Source: Herpetosiphonaceae bacterium (GTDB lineage: Bacteria > Chloroflexota > Chloroflexia > Chloroflexales > Kallotenuaceae). Taken from it: a stretch of 32,726 bases of DNA. The stretch lies in contig DASUTC010000248.1 in the NCBI GenBank assembly GCA_036374795.1, forward strand, positions 1 through 32,726. Reading direction: 5' to 3'. This document shows, one piece after another, positions 7,690-32,726 of this stretch. The notes under the pieces are model-generated. The model was not told the DNA's origin and did not search any database. It saw only the letters and a list, made by a program, of their open reading frames with translations. Position 1 is the first letter of the stretch. Every line of letters begins with the position of its first letter. The position numbers and the translations under genes are program-made.

Positions 7690-7912
7690 AAGAGGTTCAA
7701 AGCTCAAAGCTTAAAGTTCAAGAACCGAGTTCCAGATACTTCATGTGGTTCTCGGTTCTTATTTCTTGGTTCTCGGCTCTCCCCTTGCTCTCTTGTTCTC
7801 CTGTTTCTGGTATCCGGTTCTTGATGCTTGGTTCTCCGTTTATTCCCTTTGTTCGCCGGGTGCCCTTTGGGCGCGGCACCCGGTTCTTTGTTCTTTGTTC
7901 TTCTCCCGCCAC
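7690..7912. repeat. TTTGTTC-heptamer element 1
   Basis: This low-complexity stretch lies between convergent genes and is rich in TTTGTTC/GTTCTTT. It has a perfect 10-bp inverted repeat, AAGAACCGAG (7720-7729) with CTCGGTTCTT (7751-7760). It also has a perfect 9-bp hairpin, CCGGGTGCC (7856-7864) with GGCACCCGG (7875-7883), followed by TTCTTTGTTCTTTG. Its right part overlaps the 3' end of the NUDIX gene. It is likely a member of a dispersed family (see 17392, 21017, 23391, 27793 and 29170) and could also terminate transcription. Confidence 0.75.
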
Positions 7913-16455: not shown

Positions 16456-17388
16456 ATGGCACCGCGCCATTACACATCGGTCTTAGACTTATCACGCGAC
16501 GAAACGTTGGATGTGCTGCGGCGAGCGGCGAAGCTCAAAGCCCGGTGGAATGAGGATCGCAAGGTGTTGAAGCGGCTGCGGGGCTACACGCTCGCCACGA
16601 TCTACGAAAAACCGTCGCTCCGCACGCGCGTGACCTTCGAGGCGGGCATGACGCAGCTCGGCGGCCACAGCATCTACCTCGGCCCCAACGACATCCAGAT
16701 CGGCAAGCGCGAAACCGCCGCCGACATTGCGCGCAACCTGAGCCGCTGGGTCCAGATCATCATGGCGCGCTCGTTCACGCACAGCACCGTCACCGAGCTA
16801 GCCGAGCACAGCGATGTCCCGGTGATCAACGGGCTGTCGGACGTGGAGCATCCCTGCCAGGCGCTGGCCGACTTTCTGACGCTTCAGGAGCGCTACGGCG
16901 AGCTGGAGGGCAGGAAGCTGGCCTACATCGGCGACGGCAACAACGTCGCGCACTCGCTGATGCTGATGGGCGCGCTCTTAGGCGTCAACATCTCGGTCGC
17001 CACGCCGGAGGGCTACGAGCCGCAGCAGACGATCACCGAGCGGGCGCAGGAGCTTGCGGCCCAGAGCGGCGCGACAATCCGCGTGACCTGGGAGCCGCGC
17101 GAGGCGGTGGAGCGCGCCGACGTGATCTACACCGACGTGTGGGCCTCGATGGGACAGGAAGACGAGGCCGAGGCGCGCAAAAGCAGCTTCGCCTCCTATC
17201 AGGTAACGCCTGAGCTTATGGCGGCGAGCGGCAAGGCCGAGACGATCTTCATGCACTGCCTGCCCGCGCATCGCGGCGAGGAGGTTGCCGCCGATGTGAT
17301 CGACGGGCCACAGTCCGCCGTGATCGACGAGGCCGAGAACCGGCTGCACGCGCAGAAGGCGCTGATCCTGTGGCTGTTGGGGAGATAA
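16456..17388 (+). CDS. argF: Ornithine carbamoyltransferase
   Basis: It condenses ornithine and carbamoyl phosphate to citrulline in arginine synthesis. The 310-residue length is normal. The carbamoyl-phosphate motif reads EKPSLRTRVTFE (about 51-62). HPCQALADF near 133-141 is the HPxQ motif. MHCLPAHRGEEV near 263-274 carries the HCLP motif that binds ornithine. Strong AAGGAGGGG SD. No other arg gene is adjacent, and a heptamer-repeat element begins 4 bases past the stop. Confidence 0.95.
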   Translation: MAPRHYTSVLDLSRDETLDVLRRAAKLKARWNEDRKVLKRLRGYTLATIYEKPSLRTRVTFEAGMTQLGGHSIYLGPNDIQIGKRETAADIARNLSRWVQIIMARSFTHSTVTELAEHSDVPVINGLSDVEHPCQALADFLTLQERYGELEGRKLAYIGDGNNVAHSLMLMGALLGVNISVATPEGYEPQQTITERAQELAAQSGATIRVTWEPREAVERADVIYTDVWASMGQEDEAEARKSSFASYQVTPELMAASGKAETIFMHCLPAHRGEEVAADVIDGPQSAVIDEAENRLHAQKALILWLLGR

Positions 17389-17391
17389 CGC

Positions 17392-17625
17392 AAACAAAGA
17401 ACAAAGAACAGAGAACAAAGAGGCTAGAGCGGTGTGGCTCGCTGCCCTTTGTTCTTTGTTCAACGTTCCGAGTTCGGCATTGTGAGTTTCCAGTTCACAG
17501 TTTCGAGTTCAAAGGGCGAGTTGTTTTCTTGTTCCGCCCTCCGGTTCTCCCATTGTTCTTTGTTCCGTTGTTCTTTGTTCTCCGTCTGTTCTTTGTTCTC
17601 CTTCCCTCCTACCCTGCGTCATACT
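17392..17625. repeat. TTTGTTC-heptamer element 2
   Basis: This begins right after the argF stop. The first half is a long hairpin: an A-rich arm with AACAAAGAACAGAGAAC, a small GAGCG-loop-GCTC core (about 17427-17440), then CCCTTTGTTCTTTGTTC. It continues with GTTCAACGTTCCGAG and several further TTTGTTC copies up to about 17600. The core plus 3' arm recurs in inverted orientation in element 3. No gene lies between here and the TPR start. Confidence 0.8.
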
Positions 17626-17773
17626 TCCAGGTAGCCATCTTTGCTCGTCAGCGCATGACCGGTTGCCCACTACGCCGACGGGCAAGATGCTCTACACTTT
17701 GAGGGATTTTCAACCTTCCGCACGTATTCTGCGTGTTCGGTATCCAGCGAGTGTGGCTTTCGGAGGATTCTGT

Positions 17774-20700: not shown

Positions 20701-21016
20701 CCAGCAGCTTGTCAACCTGCATATTCTGGCCGGACGCCGCGACGCCGCGATTGCCGAGCAGCGCCGGATCGCGCGCATCTGCAACGATCAAAAGAACTAC
20801 ACCGAGGCCATTAGCTGCTTCCACCAGATCATTGCGCTCGATCCCGCCGACGCCGACGCCTACGAGAGCCTGGGCGATCTGCTGATGCGGCAGCAAGAGT
20901 ACGATCAGGCCGTGCGGCTGTATAAGCGCCTGGGACGTCTACGGCCCAACGACGAGCGCGTCGAGGCGCTGCAAGCGGCGGCGGAGCGCATGCTCGTGCA
21001 GAGCCAGGGAGAGTAG
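17774..21016 (+). CDS. Large tetratricopeptide-repeat protein
   Basis: The 1080-residue product is almost entirely helical TPR-type repeats, for example DALEAFEEAVRLMPQDPDLR around 114-133 and AISCFHQIIALDPADADAY near the C terminus. Two non-repeat linkers interrupt them: a Pro/Glu-rich stretch at about 200-225 and an acidic, Pro-rich stretch at about 416-485. No signal peptide or membrane helix is evident, so it is probably a cytosolic scaffold. A GGAGG SD stands 7 bases before the ATG at 17774; an in-frame extension to 17663 lacks one. It lies between two heptamer-repeat elements. The function is not known. Confidence 0.88.
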   Translation: MAGNRAIFERAMEQGRAAAQREDWTTALKEMLRAVQEIPNDLDARSSLAVALYHNEKYPQAIQLLEELRKRRRDDPFTLAYLARAYEGNQEPAKAVPLLVQLGDQALEQRIIPDALEAFEEAVRLMPQDPDLRIRLAEMFVEAGDMRRAAEQCVEIARIRHAAGDMPGAEEAVDEALSLDSANRTAQALKAELSQRALQAEPEPAYQPMPEPEPAYVPEPEPMRFGTGGLYERPLSNEQLLAQAAAQREAGNGTGALRLYERALEQGADHPDLFYSLGMLYQEHNQHAKAIDLLRKVTGNDEYALSAHYALGDSLKATGDIQAAAEEYETTIRLVDLESIGRAEADDLIAMYRAAAECYAELSELSRAASLYGTLAGFLQSKRWGKEMADEFHARAKEFTERAMFAKLRTMGTGTLPVERVIAPEPEEAPAQTTWGSLPSFTDFLRGDTPAAEEQADDPFAVLDSLPATEQHVFAPVTPIDTSGCDDTIVRFIEASGRFIEQGLVWAAVDACHEIIRHDNNYLPVHLRLGEIYEREGRIEDALNKYRTLIDTYTARGQEIEAIDAYHRMIELSPEATTMRGQLVDLLRKAKRGEEAVEQALIVANTYFKQGQTSRALEEYRRIQTWAPPSARLHQEYGQALLKLERWEAAQFEFRRAVQLDPNAPVGLAQLNLTMAVLGQNEQAMWDSFAALLQKLNAEPQHHPAVQAEYRAALLIVDTPILHYLLGLIQQVADQHASAMMSFEQALSLLVMEERPQLSPILVHQAMAESYLEQDQAQEAIDQLHTVQRLFVEQPLHIVSMHGFARPLTESELQRKLAKALSSVGQWDAAIKALKICQQFDPAEPSAYMQLADIYARQGNMEAALDQYSQLATVHESRQQLDRAIEALEQAARVEPSAMAIRSRLAQMLIRRGILDRGLKELTEVASLQRGAGEIKEAVASLQQAAEIQWMLGKLDQVYHLYDMIVAFAPEDIDARQQLVNLHILAGRRDAAIAEQRRIARICNDQKNYTEAISCFHQIIALDPADADAYESLGDLLMRQQEYDQAVRLYKRLGRLRPNDERVEALQAAAERMLVQSQGE

Positions 21017-21188
21017 AGAACAGAGAACAAAGAACAAACGGATCAGGGGCAACTTGGAACTTGGAACTTCCTGATCCCCTGACTCCCTCAAACTTGAAAC
21101 CCGGAACGTTGAACAAAGAACAAAGGGCAGCGAGCGACACCGCTCTAAGCCCTTTGTTCTTTGTTTGCTTGTTCTTTGTTCTTTTTTC
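21017..21188. repeat. TTTGTTC-heptamer element 3
   Basis: This starts at the TPR stop. It contains GGATCAGG/CCTGATCC (about 21041-21079) around a repeated AACTTGGAACTTGG. A second large hairpin follows: AACAAAGAACAAAGGGC, core AGCGAGCGACACCGCTCT, then AGCCCTTTGTTCTTTGTT (about 21113-21169), ending in CTTTTTTC. It could act as a terminator on the plus strand. The core and GAACGTTGAAC block match element 2 in reverse orientation. Confidence 0.8.
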
Positions 21189-21230
21189 AGCAATTCATCA
21201 GCCGCACGCTGCCGGGCAGTGGAGCAGCTT

Positions 21231-21239
21231 TGCTATAAT
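21231..21239 (+). promoter_or_regulatory. Extended -10 promoter for cdaA
   Basis: TGCTATAAT (TGnTATAAT) has a perfect -10 at 21234-21239; no good -35 is present, as is usual with an extended -10. The predicted start near 21246 lies downstream of the in-frame GTG at 21242, which argues against that longer cdaA start. Confidence 0.6.
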
Positions 21240-21260
21240 GCGTGCCAGGGAGAGAAGGTC

Positions 21261-21290
21261 ATGAGCAGCACGTGTGCTCCACTGCGATAG
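21261..21290 (+). CDS. Possible 9-codon leader peptide upstream of cdaA
   Basis: An ATG with a good SD (AGGGAG, 8 bases upstream) opens a 9-residue frame, MSSTCAPLR, ending in TAG at 21288-21290. The cdaA ATG follows 2 bases later and has no SD of its own. This suggests coupling by re-initiation. There is no evidence that the peptide itself has a function. Confidence 0.35.
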   Translation: MSSTCAPLR

Positions 21291-21292
21291 CC

Positions 21293-22105
21293 ATGCTTGA
21301 TTTATCAGAATTTTGGAGTCGGCTCAATCCATTCCAGTATCCAGGCAACACCGCCGATATTGTGATCGTCGCGGTGATCTTCTGGTGGCTGCTGGGCATC
21401 ATTCGGGGCACGCGAGCCGTGCAACTGCTGCGCGGCGTCACCGTCCTGCTGATCGCAACGTTCGCGATCGGCTCGGTGCTGCAACTGCAAACCGTGGAGT
21501 GGCTGCTCAGCAACGCGATCCGTCCAGCGCTCTTCGTGGCGATCCCGGTGCTGTTTCAGCCTGAGCTACGCCGCGCGCTCGAAGCGCTGGGCCGGACCAG
21601 CGAGGCGTTTACCCGCCGCCCCTTCGGCGCGAACCACAGCGATCTGGCGACGACGATCAATATTCTGGTGCGGGCTGCCGCGCAGCTCTCACAGCAGCAG
21701 ACCGGCGCGCTGATGGTGATCGAGCGCAACACGGGGCTGCAAGAGTACGCCGACCGGGGCGTGATCCTCGATGCGCGGCTGTCTGTACCGCTGCTGCTCA
21801 ACATCTTCTTTGTCAACTCGCCGCTGCACGATCTGGCCGTGATTGTCCGTGGCAGCCGCATCCTGGCCGCCAACGCCGTGCTGCCGCTCAGCGAAAACGT
21901 CGTCGGCATGCCGCGCTACGGCTCGCGGCACCGCGCCGCGCTGGGCGTGAGCGAGCAATCGGACGCGATTGCCGTCGTCGTCTCGGAGGAGACGGGCAGC
22001 ATCTCGGTGGCGACGAACGGGCGCATGGTGCGGCATCTGAGCGAGAACCGTCTGCGCAAGCTACTGGCCGAGCTGCTCAACGTGACGCTTGAGGAGCCTC
22101 AATGA
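21293..22105 (+). CDS. cdaA: Diadenylate cyclase CdaA-like membrane protein with altered DGA motif
   Basis: CdaA makes the second messenger c-di-AMP from two ATP. The 270-residue product has the family layout: three N-terminal membrane helices (about 22-85), a short helix, and the DAC domain from about 115. The RHR motif is intact at 212-214 (GSRHRAALGVSEQSDA), and SEETG is at 231-235. The other catalytic motif, DGA in NxPLHDGAVI, reads D180-L181-A182 here. An in-frame start at 21242 precedes the predicted transcript start, so ATG 21293 is used. The stop overlaps the YbbR gene by 4 bases, as in the cdaA-cdaR pairs of Firmicutes. Confidence 0.88.
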   Translation: MLDLSEFWSRLNPFQYPGNTADIVIVAVIFWWLLGIIRGTRAVQLLRGVTVLLIATFAIGSVLQLQTVEWLLSNAIRPALFVAIPVLFQPELRRALEALGRTSEAFTRRPFGANHSDLATTINILVRAAAQLSQQQTGALMVIERNTGLQEYADRGVILDARLSVPLLLNIFFVNSPLHDLAVIVRGSRILAANAVLPLSENVVGMPRYGSRHRAALGVSEQSDAIAVVVSEETGSISVATNGRMVRHLSENRLRKLLAELLNVTLEEPQ

Positions 22106-23352
22106 GACGACTACGCACATCCGGCCTCCAGTTTTTGCTGGCGCTGATGCTTTCTCTAGCGCTCTGGACCTACGTCTCGTTTACGGAAAATCCGACCGAG
22201 CAGGAAGCGTTCGAGGTGCCAGTCACGCTGATCGATCCCCATGAGGGGCTGGTGCTGGTCGATGCGACTACCGGCGAGCCAGCGGAGCCCAAGATCCTCA
22301 CCACGCTTCAGGTCACGGGGCCGCAGCTTAATCTGGACGAGCTGGATACCGAAAGCTTCACGGCGACCGCCGATCTGAGCACCCTGGAGGCGGGCCTGCA
22401 CTCGGTGCCGATTCGTGTCAGATGGCCGAGCACCGTGCGGGTGCGCAGCCACAATCCGGCCTCCCTACAGGTGCGGCTGGTGCCGGAAGCCACGCGGACC
22501 ATGACGGTGACGCGCGATGTGCAGGGCCAGCTTCCGTTCTTATTCGAGCTGGAAGATATTTCGCTCGCAACCGATCAGGTCGTCGCCAGCGGGCCGCAAG
22601 ACCTGATGGCCCGCATCGAGCGCGTCAGCCTGCCGATCGATTTGCAGGGCCGCACCGCAAACTTCACCAGGGAGATCGAGCCGATCGCCCTCGACGAGAA
22701 TGGCGATCCGGTAAGCGGGATCACGCTCAGGCCCAATCGGATCAAAGTCAACGTGCAGATCGAGTCGCGGGTGGAAGTCCAGCGCGCCTCGGTGCTGCCC
22801 TCCTTTACGGGACAGCCAGCGCCCGGTTATACCACCGAGCGTATCGATTGGGCTCCCAAGTTCGTTGAAATTATTGCGTCGCAGGCGATCACCGTGGCGC
22901 TCGAAACCGAGAAGATCGACCTGGCGGGGCGGACCGAGTCGTTCACCCAGACGGTGAGCGTGATCAAGCCGACGGGCATTCAGACCCAACTGCTGACGGA
23001 GCGTATCACCGTCACGGTGCCGGTGGTGCCCTTCCAGGTTCCATCAAATGTGCCGCTGTTTGTACCGGTGACACCGGTCAATCTCGGATCGGATCTGGCA
23101 GTGACCGCCGATCCGCCGACGCTGACGATCACGGTGTCGGGCACGTTCGATCAGTTGAGCCAGCTTGCGAACGCGACGGTTCAGGCGACCGTCGATCTGA
23201 GCGGGCTGGGACCCGGCACATACCAGCGCCCGGCGGCGATTCCGCTTCCGCAGGGGCTACAAATCGTGGGCGATCAGCCACAGGTGACGGTGACGATCGC
23301 GCCCAGTCCGCCGGGCCAGCCATCGCCCGCGCCAACAACGAACGGAGGTTAA
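22102..23352 (+). CDS. YbbR-domain (CdaR-like) membrane-anchored protein
   Basis: The 416-residue product has an N-terminal signal anchor (about 8-27, LQFLLALMLSLALWTYVSF). It is followed by tandem YbbR-like beta domains with recurring 'V.GP/ASGPQDLMARIERV' and 'ITVTVPV' strand patterns, and a Pro-rich C terminus. CdaR proteins bind CdaA at the membrane and modulate c-di-AMP synthesis. The ATGA overlap with cdaA supports that partnership. In Firmicutes the next gene is usually glmM then glmS; here glmM is absent and glmS follows after a structured leader. Confidence 0.88.
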   Translation: MRRLRTSGLQFLLALMLSLALWTYVSFTENPTEQEAFEVPVTLIDPHEGLVLVDATTGEPAEPKILTTLQVTGPQLNLDELDTESFTATADLSTLEAGLHSVPIRVRWPSTVRVRSHNPASLQVRLVPEATRTMTVTRDVQGQLPFLFELEDISLATDQVVASGPQDLMARIERVSLPIDLQGRTANFTREIEPIALDENGDPVSGITLRPNRIKVNVQIESRVEVQRASVLPSFTGQPAPGYTTERIDWAPKFVEIIASQAITVALETEKIDLAGRTESFTQTVSVIKPTGIQTQLLTERITVTVPVVPFQVPSNVPLFVPVTPVNLGSDLAVTADPPTLTITVSGTFDQLSQLANATVQATVDLSGLGPGTYQRPAAIPLPQGLQIVGDQPQVTVTIAPSPPGQPSPAPTTNGG

Positions 23353-23370
23353 CGCACACCGATAACGTTA

Positions 23371-23525
23371 AGCGCTTGGCCTGTAGGGGAAGGAGAACAA
23401 AGAACAACGGAACAAAGAACAAAGCTGTTAACTTCTGTTCTCTGTTCTTTGTTCTCTATTCTGCTCGTACAGGTGACGAGGTGAAGGTTCCTCGCGAAAG
23501 CGAGTGCTAACGATCCGGCAGAAGC
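23371..23525 (+). ncRNA. Candidate divergent glmS ribozyme (leader of glmS)
   Basis: Seen: AGCGCTTGG at 23371-23379, then CCTGTA (23380-23385), which pairs with TACAGG (23468-23473). This sits directly before TGACGAGG (23474-23481), then GGTT, TCG, GCG, TGC and CCGGC in the order of the glmS ribozyme core. The family starts AGCGCC and pairs it with GGCG. Here CGCTT can pair with AAGCG (23488-23492 region), a compensatory change in P2.2. The P1 loop is filled by a heptamer-repeat hairpin. P2 is weakly formed, P2.1 is shortened and P3/P4 were not identified. The 3' limit is approximate. If active, glucosamine 6-phosphate would trigger cleavage at about 23371/23372 and reduce glmS expression. 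Confidence 0.55.
23391..23460. repeat. TTTGTTC-heptamer element 4 (inside the ribozyme P1 loop)
   Basis: GAGAACAAAGAACA (23393-23406) pairs perfectly over 14 bp with TGTTCTTTGTTCTC (23443-23456). A second GAACAAAGAACA copy (about 23410-23421) lies in the loop. It lies wholly between the two P1 strands of the glmS ribozyme candidate and would extend that helix. Confidence 0.8.
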
Positions 23526-23894
23526 GTCTCGTGGGCGAGGCGGCAGGCAGCGGCGGCGGGACTGGCACTTCCGCGCCCTGGCGGCGGACTCGCTCAGACC
23601 AGCGGACGTGGATACGGATCGGAACAGCGAAGATCAGCGGATGCCTTCAGGATGCGCTGCCATCCTCGAACGCCAGCCAAAGCCGCCGGGCGACCGGCGG
23701 GACAATCAGCGGGCGTAGCAGCACACAAGTCACAGCAGCGGGCAGCACAGTCGCGTCATCGGCTGTGGTGCGGCTGCGCACCCCGGACTTGTCTCAACCC
23801 AATGTTTTTATCAGCGACGATTATTTCCGGTCGGCGGAGTGCGGCGACGTGTGCTCGTCCTGCGTCCCGACCGCTCGATACACGAGGTTTGATT
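23526..23894 (+). other. Remaining glmS leader
   Basis: This G+C-rich stretch has short hairpins, for example CGTCTCG/CGAGGCG near 23523-23540. It would be the 3' part of the transcript between the ribozyme core and glmS. Open frames through it have no recognisable protein features. GAGG before the glmS ATG serves as SD. Confidence 0.35.
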
Positions 23895-25739
23895 ATGTGT
23901 GGCATTGTAGGATATGTCGGATCGCGCGAGGCGACAGAGGTGGTGGTGAGCGGGCTGCAACGGCTGGAGTATCGCGGCTACGACTCGGCGGGCATTGCGA
24001 TCTTGAACGGCGGCGATTTCCAGGTGCGTCGCTCCGTGGGCAAGCTCAGCAATCTTCAGCAGCGGCTACGTGCCGAGCCAACGCACGGACGGCAAGGCAT
24101 CGGGCATACGCGCTGGGCAACGCACGGCGGCGTCACCGAGGCCAACGCGCATCCGCATCGCTCCGACAGCGGCGATATTGTCGTGATCCAGAACGGCATC
24201 TTCGAGAACTACCTTGAGCAAAAGGGCCAGCTCGTCGAGGCCGGCGTGACGTTTCACTCGCAGACGGATACCGAGGTGATCGCGCATCTGATCGAGCGCG
24301 AGACGCAGGCTACGGGCGATTTTGTGAGCGGCTTCCGGCGCGCGATGCAGCAGCTTCGCGGCGGTAACGCGGTGGTGGCGATGCATCGCCAGCAGCCTGG
24401 GCTGATCCTGGCGGCGCGGCTGGGCAACGCTGGCGGCGTGGTGATCGGGCTGGGCGAGGACGAGAACTTTATCGCCTCCGATATTCCGGCGATTCTGGAC
24501 TACACCCAGCAGGTGCTTTTTCTGGAGGACGGCGAGCTGGCGATCATCACGGATCAGACGGTGCGCGTCGAGCGCATCAGCGGCGAGGCGGTAACAAAGC
24601 AGCCGCAGCGGATCAACTGGGACCCTGTGGCGGCGGCCAAGGGCGGCTACAAGCATTTCATGCTCAAAGAGATCTTCGAGCAGACGCGCTCGATTACCGA
24701 TACGCTCCATGACCGGATCGATCTCGAAAACGCGCGCGTAGACCTCGACACGCTCACGCTCAGCGACGAGCAGCTTCGCGCGATCGACAAAATCTATATC
24801 GTCGCCTGCGGCACCGCGTGGCACGCCGGGCTGATCGCCAAGTTCGTGATCGAGGCGCTCGCCCGCGTGCGGGTGGAGGTCGACTACGGCTCCGAGTTCC
24901 GCTACCGCAATCCGATCCTCGACCAGGGCACGCTGATGATCGCTATCACCCAGTCGGGCGAGACGGTGGATACGCTGGTGCCGATGGAGCTGGCGCGCGA
25001 GGCGGGCGTGCCCTGCCTGGGCATCGTCAACGCGGTCGGCTCGCAGGCGGCGCGGCTCAGCGATGCCGGCGTGATCTACCTCAACGCCGGACCGGAGATC
25101 GCCGTAGCCTCGACCAAAGTCTTCACCTGTATGCTGATCGCGGCGTATCTGTTCGCGCTCAAGCTGGGCGAGGTCAAGGGGCAGATCGATCGGGCGATGA
25201 TGCGCGAACATTTGCAGGCGCTGCTGGCACTGCCCAACAAGCTCGGCACGCTGCTCCAGCAGACCGCGCGCTACGAGCAGCTCGCGGAGCGCTACCGCCA
25301 CACGACGGATATGCTCTTCCTGGGACGCGGCATCAGCTACCCGATTGCGCTCGAAGGCGCGCTGAAGCTCAAAGAGATCTCGTACATCCATGCCGAGGGC
25401 TACCCGGCGGGCGAGATGAAGCACGGCCCGATCGCGCTGATCGACGAGCAGATGCCGGTGGTCTGCATCGCCGTGCGCGACAACGTGTACGATAAGATGC
25501 TCTCGAACATCGAGCAGGTCAAGACGCGCGGCGGCGAGGTGATCGCGATCGTCACCGAGGGCGATACTACTGCGCGCGACAAGGCCGACTTCGTGATCGA
25601 GGTGCCGCGCACGCTGCCGCTGCTCTCGCCTGTGCTGACGGTGGTGCCGCTGCAACTGCTGAGCTACTACTGCGCGCTGCGGCGCGGCGCGGATGTCGAT
25701 CAGCCGCGCAATCTGGCGAAGAGCGTCACCGTGGAGTAG
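23895..25739 (+). CDS. glmS: Glutamine-fructose-6-phosphate aminotransferase (isomerising)
   Basis: GlmS makes glucosamine 6-phosphate from fructose 6-phosphate and glutamine, the entry to peptidoglycan precursors. The 614-residue length is typical. The class II glutaminase domain starts MCGIVGYVGS; the Cys next to Met is the nucleophile, which fixes the start at 23895 although the frame is open to 23652. LEYRGYDSAGIA, HTRWATHG and QNGIFENY follow. Two SIS domains come next, with TQSGETVDTL and ASTKVFTCMLIA in the first and GRGISYPIALEGALKLKEIS in the second. The C-terminal PRNLAKSVTVE is diagnostic. CGAGG lies 7 bases upstream of the ATG. Confidence 0.96.
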   Translation: MCGIVGYVGSREATEVVVSGLQRLEYRGYDSAGIAILNGGDFQVRRSVGKLSNLQQRLRAEPTHGRQGIGHTRWATHGGVTEANAHPHRSDSGDIVVIQNGIFENYLEQKGQLVEAGVTFHSQTDTEVIAHLIERETQATGDFVSGFRRAMQQLRGGNAVVAMHRQQPGLILAARLGNAGGVVIGLGEDENFIASDIPAILDYTQQVLFLEDGELAIITDQTVRVERISGEAVTKQPQRINWDPVAAAKGGYKHFMLKEIFEQTRSITDTLHDRIDLENARVDLDTLTLSDEQLRAIDKIYIVACGTAWHAGLIAKFVIEALARVRVEVDYGSEFRYRNPILDQGTLMIAITQSGETVDTLVPMELAREAGVPCLGIVNAVGSQAARLSDAGVIYLNAGPEIAVASTKVFTCMLIAAYLFALKLGEVKGQIDRAMMREHLQALLALPNKLGTLLQQTARYEQLAERYRHTTDMLFLGRGISYPIALEGALKLKEISYIHAEGYPAGEMKHGPIALIDEQMPVVCIAVRDNVYDKMLSNIEQVKTRGGEVIAIVTEGDTTARDKADFVIEVPRTLPLLSPVLTVVPLQLLSYYCALRRGADVDQPRNLAKSVTVE

Positions 25740-30871: not shown

Positions 30872-32726
30872 TCACTTGTTTTGGTGAATAGTGATGGTAC
30901 CTTTCTTCGTGACAAGCGTTGGGTCCGCGTCGAACGCCGCACCCATTTGGGTATCGTAGACGATCGCATCGCCGTTGTTCTTGTCCCAGATCATGATACG
31001 GATCTTGTCGTCGGTGTTGCCATTACCCGCAGCCCCGCCGTCGATCACCGCTACCATAAAGCCGTAGTTACCCGTACCGTTAATCGTGCCGGTGCCCTGG
31101 TACTGTGCTTTTTCACCAGCCACGATGAGCCACTCATAGGTCGTGCTGAAGAACTCCAGGCTGCCCAGAGAGAACATAAGTGTAGTCTCCCCTCGGGGCG
31201 CGGTCATGTCATTGGTATAGTTGGCTTTGATGCCAACTTCAGCCGCTCCCTGGAGCGATGGATCGGGCACATACGCGCCCGCAGGTGAATTGATGCTGTC
31301 TTTACCAGTAACATGGCCCCTACCTGGATCATACACCACAACATACCGGAAGATTGCCGAGCCAGAGCCTCCGTCGTCGTCGGTGACGCTGATCTTGAGT
31401 GTGTAGATACCAGGAGTGGTGTAGATGCGGCTGCCCTGAACGTTACCGGTACCCGTCGCCGGGTTGTATGTCACGGTACCGGCACTGGTTGTGTTATTGC
31501 CCCAATCGATCGCGGCAGTGTGCGTGTCCGCCGTGCCGGGATCGGTGAATGGAGCGCTCACATTGATCGCTGTGCCGACCGGAACCGCCTGTGTCGGCCC
31601 GGTGATCGCGCCGACCACTGGTGCGACGTTATTGATTGTCACCTGCGCGACGTACTCAGTGAAATCGCCGTCCTTATCGCTGATCTTGGCTCTGACCGTG
31701 CGTAGGCCATTGTCATTGGTCGCGCAGCTTGCCGTGGCCGTGCTGCTGGCGCTGCCGTAGCCGCTGCCACAGTCGAAAGCGTAGCTGAAGCCTGCCGCCG
31801 TGTCCCCACTCGATGGGTCGAACGGGTTGCTCAACACCAGCGCGATCGGGCTGCCCTCGTCCACGGGCGACGTGGCGCTGAAGCTCGCCGTCGGCGCGAC
31901 GTTATTAATCGTGACTTGCGCGACATACTCGGTCGTGCCGCCGTCCTTGTCGGCGATCTTGGCCTTGACCGTGCGCACGCCGCTGTCGGTCGTGGCGCAG
32001 CTTGCGGTGGCCGTGCTGCTGGCGGAGCCGTAGCCGCTACCACAGTCGAAGGCGTAGCTGAAGCCCGCTGCCGTGTCCACACTCGATGGATCGGAGGGGT
32101 CGCTCAGTGCCAGCTCGATCGCCTGCCCTTCGTCGACCTCCGTCGGTGCGCTGAAGGTAGCCAGTGGTGGCACATTGTCGATCGTCGAGGTCGCGGTGTA
32201 CTCCGTGAAATCACCGTCCTTGTCGGTGATCTTGGCTTTGACCGTGCGTAGGCCGTTGTCGTCGGTCGCACAACTGGCCGACGCCGTGCTGCTGGCGCTG
32301 CCATAGCCGCCACCACAGTCGAAGGCGTAGCTAAAGCCCGCCGCCGTGTCCGCGCTCGATGGATCGGAGGGGTCGCTCAGTGCCAACTCGATCGACTCGC
32401 CTTCATTCACCTGGGAGGAGGCCGTGAAGCTCGCCGTTGGCGCAACATTGTTGATCGTCGAGGTCGCGGTGTACTCGGTGGTGCCGCCATCCTTGTCGGT
32501 GATCCGGGCTCTGACCGTGCGTAGGCCGTTGTCGTCGGTCGCACAGCTTGTAGTGGTCGTGCTGCCCGTGCCGCCGTAGCCGCTGCCACAGTCGAAGGCG
32601 TAGCTAAAGCCTGCCGCCATGTCCGCGCTCGATGGGTCGGATGGATTGCTCAAGCTGAGCGTGATCGGGCTGCCCTCGTCCACCGGTGAGGCCGTCGTGA
32701 ACGTGGCGGTCGGCGCGACGTTGGCG
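30872..32726 (-). CDS. Secreted repeat protein with Ig/PKD-like domains, 5' end outside the window
   Basis: The frame is open to the right edge, so the start is missing; at least 618 residues are present. The N-terminal part is four complete tandem units of 91 residues (NxAPTASF...DEG...DPSD...FSYAFDCGSGYG...SCAT...RTVKAKI.DKDG), each with a conserved Cys pair likely to form a disulphide. A fifth unit begins at the edge. A PKD-like domain follows (about 31320-31620), then a C-terminal module (GHVTGKDSINSPAGAY ... YQGTGTINGTGNYGF ... IMIWDKNNGD) seen at the ends of secreted bacterial surface proteins. It is probably an adhesin or exoprotein (inference). Confidence 0.85.
   Translation of the reverse strand, partial: ANVAPTATFTTASPVDEGSPITLSLSNPSDPSSADMAAGFSYAFDCGSGYGGTGSTTTTSCATDDNGLRTVRARITDKDGGTTEYTATSTINNVAPTASFTASSQVNEGESIELALSDPSDPSSADTAAGFSYAFDCGGGYGSASSTASASCATDDNGLRTVKAKITDKDGDFTEYTATSTIDNVPPLATFSAPTEVDEGQAIELALSDPSDPSSVDTAAGFSYAFDCGSGYGSASSTATASCATTDSGVRTVKAKIADKDGGTTEYVAQVTINNVAPTASFSATSPVDEGSPIALVLSNPFDPSSGDTAAGFSYAFDCGSGYGSASSTATASCATNDNGLRTVRAKISDKDGDFTEYVAQVTINNVAPVVGAITGPTQAVPVGTAINVSAPFTDPGTADTHTAAIDWGNNTTSAGTVTYNPATGTGNVQGSRIYTTPGIYTLKISVTDDDGGSGSAIFRYVVVYDPGRGHVTGKDSINSPAGAYVPDPSLQGAAEVGIKANYTNDMTAPRGETTLMFSLGSLEFFSTTYEWLIVAGEKAQYQGTGTINGTGNYGFMVAVIDGGAAGNGNTDDKIRIMIWDKNNGDAIVYDTQMGAAFDADPTLVTKKGTITIHQNK
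31621..32726 (-). repeat. Tandem 273-bp coding repeats
   Basis: The unit boundary sequence (gcgacgtt or gcaacattg type) recurs at about 31621, 31894, 32167, 32440 and 32713, an exact 273-bp period. It encodes the 91-residue units of the repeat protein. The units remain similar at DNA level, so copy number could change by recombination, and assembly across the right edge may be affected. Confidence 0.9.

Follow-up and report, generated by a model that had tools for sequence, protein, structure and literature searches.

The window analysed here is a stretch of 32,726 nucleotides from a Herpetosiphonaceae bacterium (contig DASUTC010000248.1, forward strand; genome G000 in what follows). Its plus strand carries three consecutive genes: a DAC-domain gene for a CdaA-like diadenylate cyclase (21242-22105; Pfam PF02457), a gene with a YbbR domain, CdaR-like (22102-23352; Pfam PF07949), and glmS, which encodes glutamine--fructose-6-phosphate aminotransferase with its SIS and GATase domains (23895-25739). 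Between the YbbR-domain gene and glmS lies a glmS ribozyme of Rfam family RF00234 (23360-23725, plus strand). The first-pass annotation had listed it as a candidate, and cmscan bears this out, scoring 52.4 bits where the gathering threshold is 37 (E = 1.5e-9), with all 167 of the 167 model positions aligned; this score, together with the position upstream of glmS, places the sequence in the family. The core motifs AAGCGC, GACGAGG and AGCGGATG follow each other in the expected order. Self-cleavage is predicted by the family alignment at what we take to be the bond between A23371 and G23372 of AAGCGC (23371-23372, plus strand). Sequence and RNA folding define the two strands of helix P1, CCTGTA (23380-23385) and TACAGG (23468-23473), both on the plus strand. 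The ribozyme contains two long inserts, a repeat within P1 and an expansion of about 120 nt in the P2 region. Leader comparison sets the latter at 122 nt (23511-23632, plus strand); it measures 120-126 nt in all four complete leaders of the bacterial family and 55 nt in G048, a genome from another family of the order. In the window and in leaders L032, L033 and L034, the P2-region expansion sits between GCTAA and ATCAGCGGATG.

Could the two inserts mean that the ribozyme is misidentified, or is decaying through them? A stricter whole-genome search with RF00234 did misplace the match, to 23561-23725, with 34.2 bits, below the cut-off. Against this stand the score of the full scan and the ordered core motifs, as well as the same architecture upstream of glmS in three related genomes, G002, G004 (45.7 bits) and G005. 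We regard misidentification or decay as highly improbable. The ribozyme of G005 was missed by Rfam even at E 0.01, and those of G000 and G002 were misplaced in filtered searches. When RF00234 was searched across the class, 103 of 158 genomes gave a match, but the filter again put the matches of G000 and G002 in the wrong place and missed those of G004 and G005, where the ribozyme is present by inspection, so this class-wide count is no proof that long P1 helices are absent elsewhere.

The aligned leaders also revealed covariation of the fifth base of GCGCN with the base preceding GCGG, C/G in 10 leaders and A/A in 20 (L001-L030), and T together with A in G000, G002, G005 and G048. Two of the relatives have repeat arrays of their own between the ribozyme and the glmS start, both in inverted order: CAACAGG/CCTGNNN heptads in G002 (L032) and ATGACAAG/GTCACCTT octads in G048 (L178, about 1950-2080).

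The insert in P1 is a hairpin of about 70 nt built of heptads (23393-23462, plus strand; 89.1 bits with R1, a model made from 17 aligned copies of the repeat). As the first-pass annotation had it, the heptamer hairpin lies wholly between CCTGTA and TACAGG, and its perfect 14-bp stem is exact, with a 5' arm GAGAACAAAGAACA at 23393-23406 and a 3' arm TGTTCTTTGTTCTC at 23443-23456, both on the plus strand. RNA folding of 23370-23490 gives -46.3 kcal/mol (z = -5.1; none of 200 shuffled sequences was equally stable). In the predicted fold the heptad hairpin is an independent stem stacked on P1, so that the insertion merely lengthens the helix, again as had been proposed. In glmS ribozyme structures the tip of P1 points away from the catalytic core. 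The element would thus fold on itself and extend P1 away from the core, which may be why it is tolerated, and glucosamine-6-phosphate-dependent cleavage would putatively be left intact.

The same element is found in many other places of the genome, and its description as a dispersed family holds. The pattern GAACAAAGAACAAAG, allowing one mismatch at most, occurs 244 + 221 = 465 times in the 7.75-Mb genome, while a reversed-pattern control gave 0; these are tandem, degenerate 7-nt units dispersed over the genome, as in short tandemly repeated repetitive (STRR) sequences. Copies of the P1 insert lie on unlinked contigs, full-length with 93% identity on C109 and 90% on C58 (positions 8-77 of the 82-nt query), and near-full-length with 79-86% identity elsewhere (C67, 86%; C156, C70 and C168, 85% each; others near 80%). 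An alignment of 17 copies resolves two arms of about 30 nt and a variable loop, and most of these copies have a phase shift, AACAACGGAAC, inside the 5' heptad arm. Independent slippage would not be expected to produce this shift again and again, which argues for copying between loci. Three further counts come from a 418-kb sample, a non-random one made of large contigs holding matches. A 30-nt stretch recurs at 8 places, P1 included, with at most 3 mismatches; opposite-facing AACAAAG units within 100 nt are convergent in 14 cases and divergent in 0, so the arrays are hairpins rather than mere tandem repeats; and model R1 has 44 matches at E <= 0.01, collapsed by hand to 26 distinct places. In searches of whole genomes that scored 150 candidates in each, the element model gave 149 match lines in G000, 70 in G068, and 1, 0 and 0 in G002, G004 and G005, respectively; the 149 lines are not a copy number, since no more than 150 candidates were scored per genome and both strands of a palindrome may count. 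Full-length copies are present in G048 and G068, which represent two other families of the order, and 67 of the 100 genomes searched had no 15-mer match.

Two further copies in the window are intergenic and were identified with model R1 and by syntenic comparison, one at locus A (17390-17470, plus strand, 49.4 bits) and one at locus B (21103-21183, minus strand, 54 bits). They have in common a longer inner stem-loop, AGAGCGGTGT...CTCGCTGCCC, at 17426-17447 and, in the opposite orientation, at 21125-21146, and loop and arms may therefore have travelled together. Other repeats of the window are a second palindrome, CGGGTGCC...GGCACCCG, which is frequent in the spacers of G000 (L134-L138; window 7850-7882), and a 273-bp tandem repeat of 3.8 copies with 79% matches inside a large minus-strand ORF (31619-32652).

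Where do copies of the hairpin persist? The 418-kb sample contains 30 repeat clusters. Twenty of them are outside crude ORFs, where only 14% of the bases lie, and the other 10 include some in ORFs that look spurious or over-long. Genuine coding copies occur in frame in the linkers of NRPS adenylation domains, between the AYVV motif and the LPxYM motif, six in G000 and two in G001, a member of the same genus (L201 and L203). Both arms are translated in the G000 linkers L264, L268, L270 and L281, for example as NKEQRNKEQ...SCSLFSVLCSP, and L138 of the same genome has two shorter in-frame remnants. Pfam domains AMP-binding, AMP-binding_C and PP-binding were found in 7 of the 7 proteins submitted from the eight NRPS proteins, and the in-frame hairpin linker is placed inside the AMP-binding_C domains. 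All 8 of 8 NRPS linkers found by pattern carry heptads, most of the loci having been chosen as repeat-bearing. The presence of copies both between genes and in NRPS linkers suggests survival at permissive sites rather than targeting of RNA.

The proposal that the repeat family is selected for neutral sites within RNAs fares differently. Eighty further loci centred on the repeat (189,008 bases in all) were drawn from the listed places of GAACAAAGAACAAAG and of P1-insert matches, a subset of the 465 occurrences and in part without a full-length element; not one contained an Rfam family at its gathering score. Targeting of structured RNAs is rejected on this sample, and selection specific to RNA is unsupported, with copies found also in spacers and NRPS genes. 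The ribozyme is the single case of a structured RNA, which is probably about what chance would give from the rarity of RNA genes; it is permissive sites in general that seem to tolerate the element.

The history of P1 can be followed in relatives by measuring its span from GCGC to ACGAGG. Compared with typical RF00234 members, the ribozyme of the window has the same core, helix order and position upstream of glmS, but a P1 of 104 nt, against 25-51 nt (median 33) in 30 other leaders from the class and order, in addition to the P2-region expansion of 122 nt. G000, G001, G002 and G003 belong to one genus, and G004 and G005 to sister genera. The P1 spans 30 nt in G004 (hand count) and 37 nt in G005, both free of heptads, and 26 nt in G048 (hand count). 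In G002 it spans 100 nt of unrelated sequence. The upstream genes of G001 are in the same order as in G000 and 77-84% identical at the DNA level; its P1 begins with CCTGGACGAGTAAGAACCCAGAACCTAGAACCCA and is cut off by the end of the contig within AAGAACCCAGAACCTAGAACCCA, which consists of heptads of another unit. A pattern search of G001 for a contig that continues the ribozyme into its 3' half recognised none, the control giving about as many matches, and no glmS leader was recovered from G003. The leaders inspected outside the genus all have a short P1, which is likely to be the older state, and the long P1 is confined to the genus as far as inspected. The empty P1 loop anticipated in close relatives is therefore seen in part, as a short, heptad-free P1 in both sister genera, but not within the genus: the only other complete leader there, that of G002, has a long P1 of its own, so that no strict empty-site allele was found. 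The G002 helix is equally long and different in sequence, and lengthening of P1 may accordingly predate the element in the genus.

An extended P1 in G000, in G002 and apparently, up to the contig end, in G001, despite different sequences, is what one would expect if the long helix were itself functional, e.g., kept as an RNase III site, for stabilisation of the mRNA after cleavage, or for pairing with heptad-bearing transcripts, and the high predicted stability (z = -5.1) fits this as well. The sequence is nevertheless not conserved between species, and the same element is found between genes and in protein linkers; we judge a function of this kind quite improbable.

The means by which copies spread was sought in the known routes of small mobile elements. 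The repeat had been called mobile-looking, and for mobility by transposition this could not be upheld. Twenty-five copies gave a mean target-site duplication of 1.48, compared to 1.32 after shuffling, and 124 of 500 shuffles scored as high; the ragged heptad ends limit the power of this comparison. Of the hallmarks of MITEs, the family has unlinked full-length copies and lacks target-site duplications. In G000, the search for an intact Y1 (RAYT-type) transposase yielded only a fragment with a stop (profile positions 87-121, 24.6 bits), and none was found in G068, with its 70 element match lines. Y1 matches are present in G002, G004 and G005, genomes with 1, 0 and 0 element match lines. RAYT-type mobilisation is unsupported. 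GCTA and CTAC in the 3' flanks, considered as a possible tag of the element, look by eye like stop codons of neighbouring genes.

The heptads themselves change between sister species. The counts of GAACAAAGAACAAAG are 465 in G000, 255 in G001, 15 in G003, 2 in G002, 1 in G004 and 0 in G005, whereas GAACCTAGAACCTAG, with one mismatch at most, occurs 750 times in G001, twice in G000, and in none of six other genomes searched. At loci A (17388-17663) and B (21016-21242), G000 has GAACAAA arrays, G001 has mostly GAACCTA/GAACCAA at the corresponding positions, and the spacers of G002 are compact and free of these arrays. Each of G000 and G001 has a dominant heptad, and the array in P1 follows the heptad of its genome. 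With GAACCTA 750 times in the one genome and twice in the other, arrays evidently turn over. One might tentatively see here a form of concerted evolution, in which the species' own heptad replaces, throughout the genome, what stands at occupied sites (the ribozyme loop among them) with the hairpin form kept; the agent would be a hairpin that replicates or acts by gene conversion, with no recognised transposase. The species-private heptad is seen at three syntenic loci, too few to prove such evolution.

The difference in heptads at these same three loci would also be consistent with growth in situ, by which a P1 hairpin is lengthened through polymerase slippage and hairpin-templated (quasi-palindrome) copying, nothing having moved in. 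Such processes yield one arm of tandem heptads and a second arm complementary to it, and tandem heptads are seen; the long P1 of G002, with its unrelated sequence, can be read in the same way. What they do not explain is a sequence of about 70 nt, common phase shift included, at unlinked loci with up to 93% identity, for which copying between loci is needed, or the 30-nt stretch at its 8 places in the 418 kb. Growth in situ is, in our opinion, unlikely as the origin of the insert, and slippage may still add or change units after arrival in P1.

The reading that we consider well favoured is that a non-coding palindromic element of about 70 nt, with GAACAAA-type heptad arms and a variable loop, was copied into the P1 loop of a glmS ribozyme that is ordinary in other respects, and is tolerated there, as an instance of survival at permissive sites. 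Its arrival, by copying from another locus, would have taken place in an ancestor of G000 and G001, and turnover of heptad units would have remodelled it later.

The closest precedents are the Rickettsia palindromic elements (RPEs) and the STRR sequences that cyanobacteria carry in their RNase P RNA. STRR units are heptamers, and STRR sequences are reportedly present inside the RNase P RNA of heterocyst-forming cyanobacteria (Vioque, 1997, as cited in PMC2858038). The likeness lies in short scattered tandem units inside a ribozyme gene; the difference is that here the heptads form a hairpin with a common phase shift. RPEs, as presented in PMC2229807, are 105-146 bp long; they occur in protein genes, where they keep the frame, as well as within tmRNA and M1 RNA, and their presence is interpreted as neutral. 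Likened by description, the two families have in common a palindrome in frame in protein genes, with both arms translated, and a palindrome inside structured RNA, here P1 of one ribozyme; the present element differs in its length of about 70 nt, its heptad-tandem arms, its host outside Rickettsia, and the glmS ribozyme as host RNA. A pneumococcal BOX element is similarly a small dispersed repeat in a regulatory leader RNA, one with two T-box riboswitches that, on the account in PMC3049150, apparently still works; it lies between the two riboswitches, in contrast to the location within one helix seen here. The TAACTGA heptamers of Beggiatoaceae are abundant intergenic repeats of distant lineages (PMC4679880), but they are direct repeats upstream of start codons, and that source, as far as it describes them, mentions no hairpins and no insertion into a ribozyme. 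Our literature search, in which few subscription papers were covered, recognised no description of a repeat in the P1 loop of glmS or of such repeats in Chloroflexi relatives.

A practical warning is that family models may misplace or miss ribozymes with such inserts. The species-private heptads at shared loci make the spread and homogenisation of the repeat testable by comparison of two closely related genomes. The glmS P1 loop is added to the known host sites of such palindromes, and the family provides an independent example, from neither Rickettsia nor cyanobacteria, of a palindrome that looks selfish and resides in tolerant loops of both a ribozyme and proteins.
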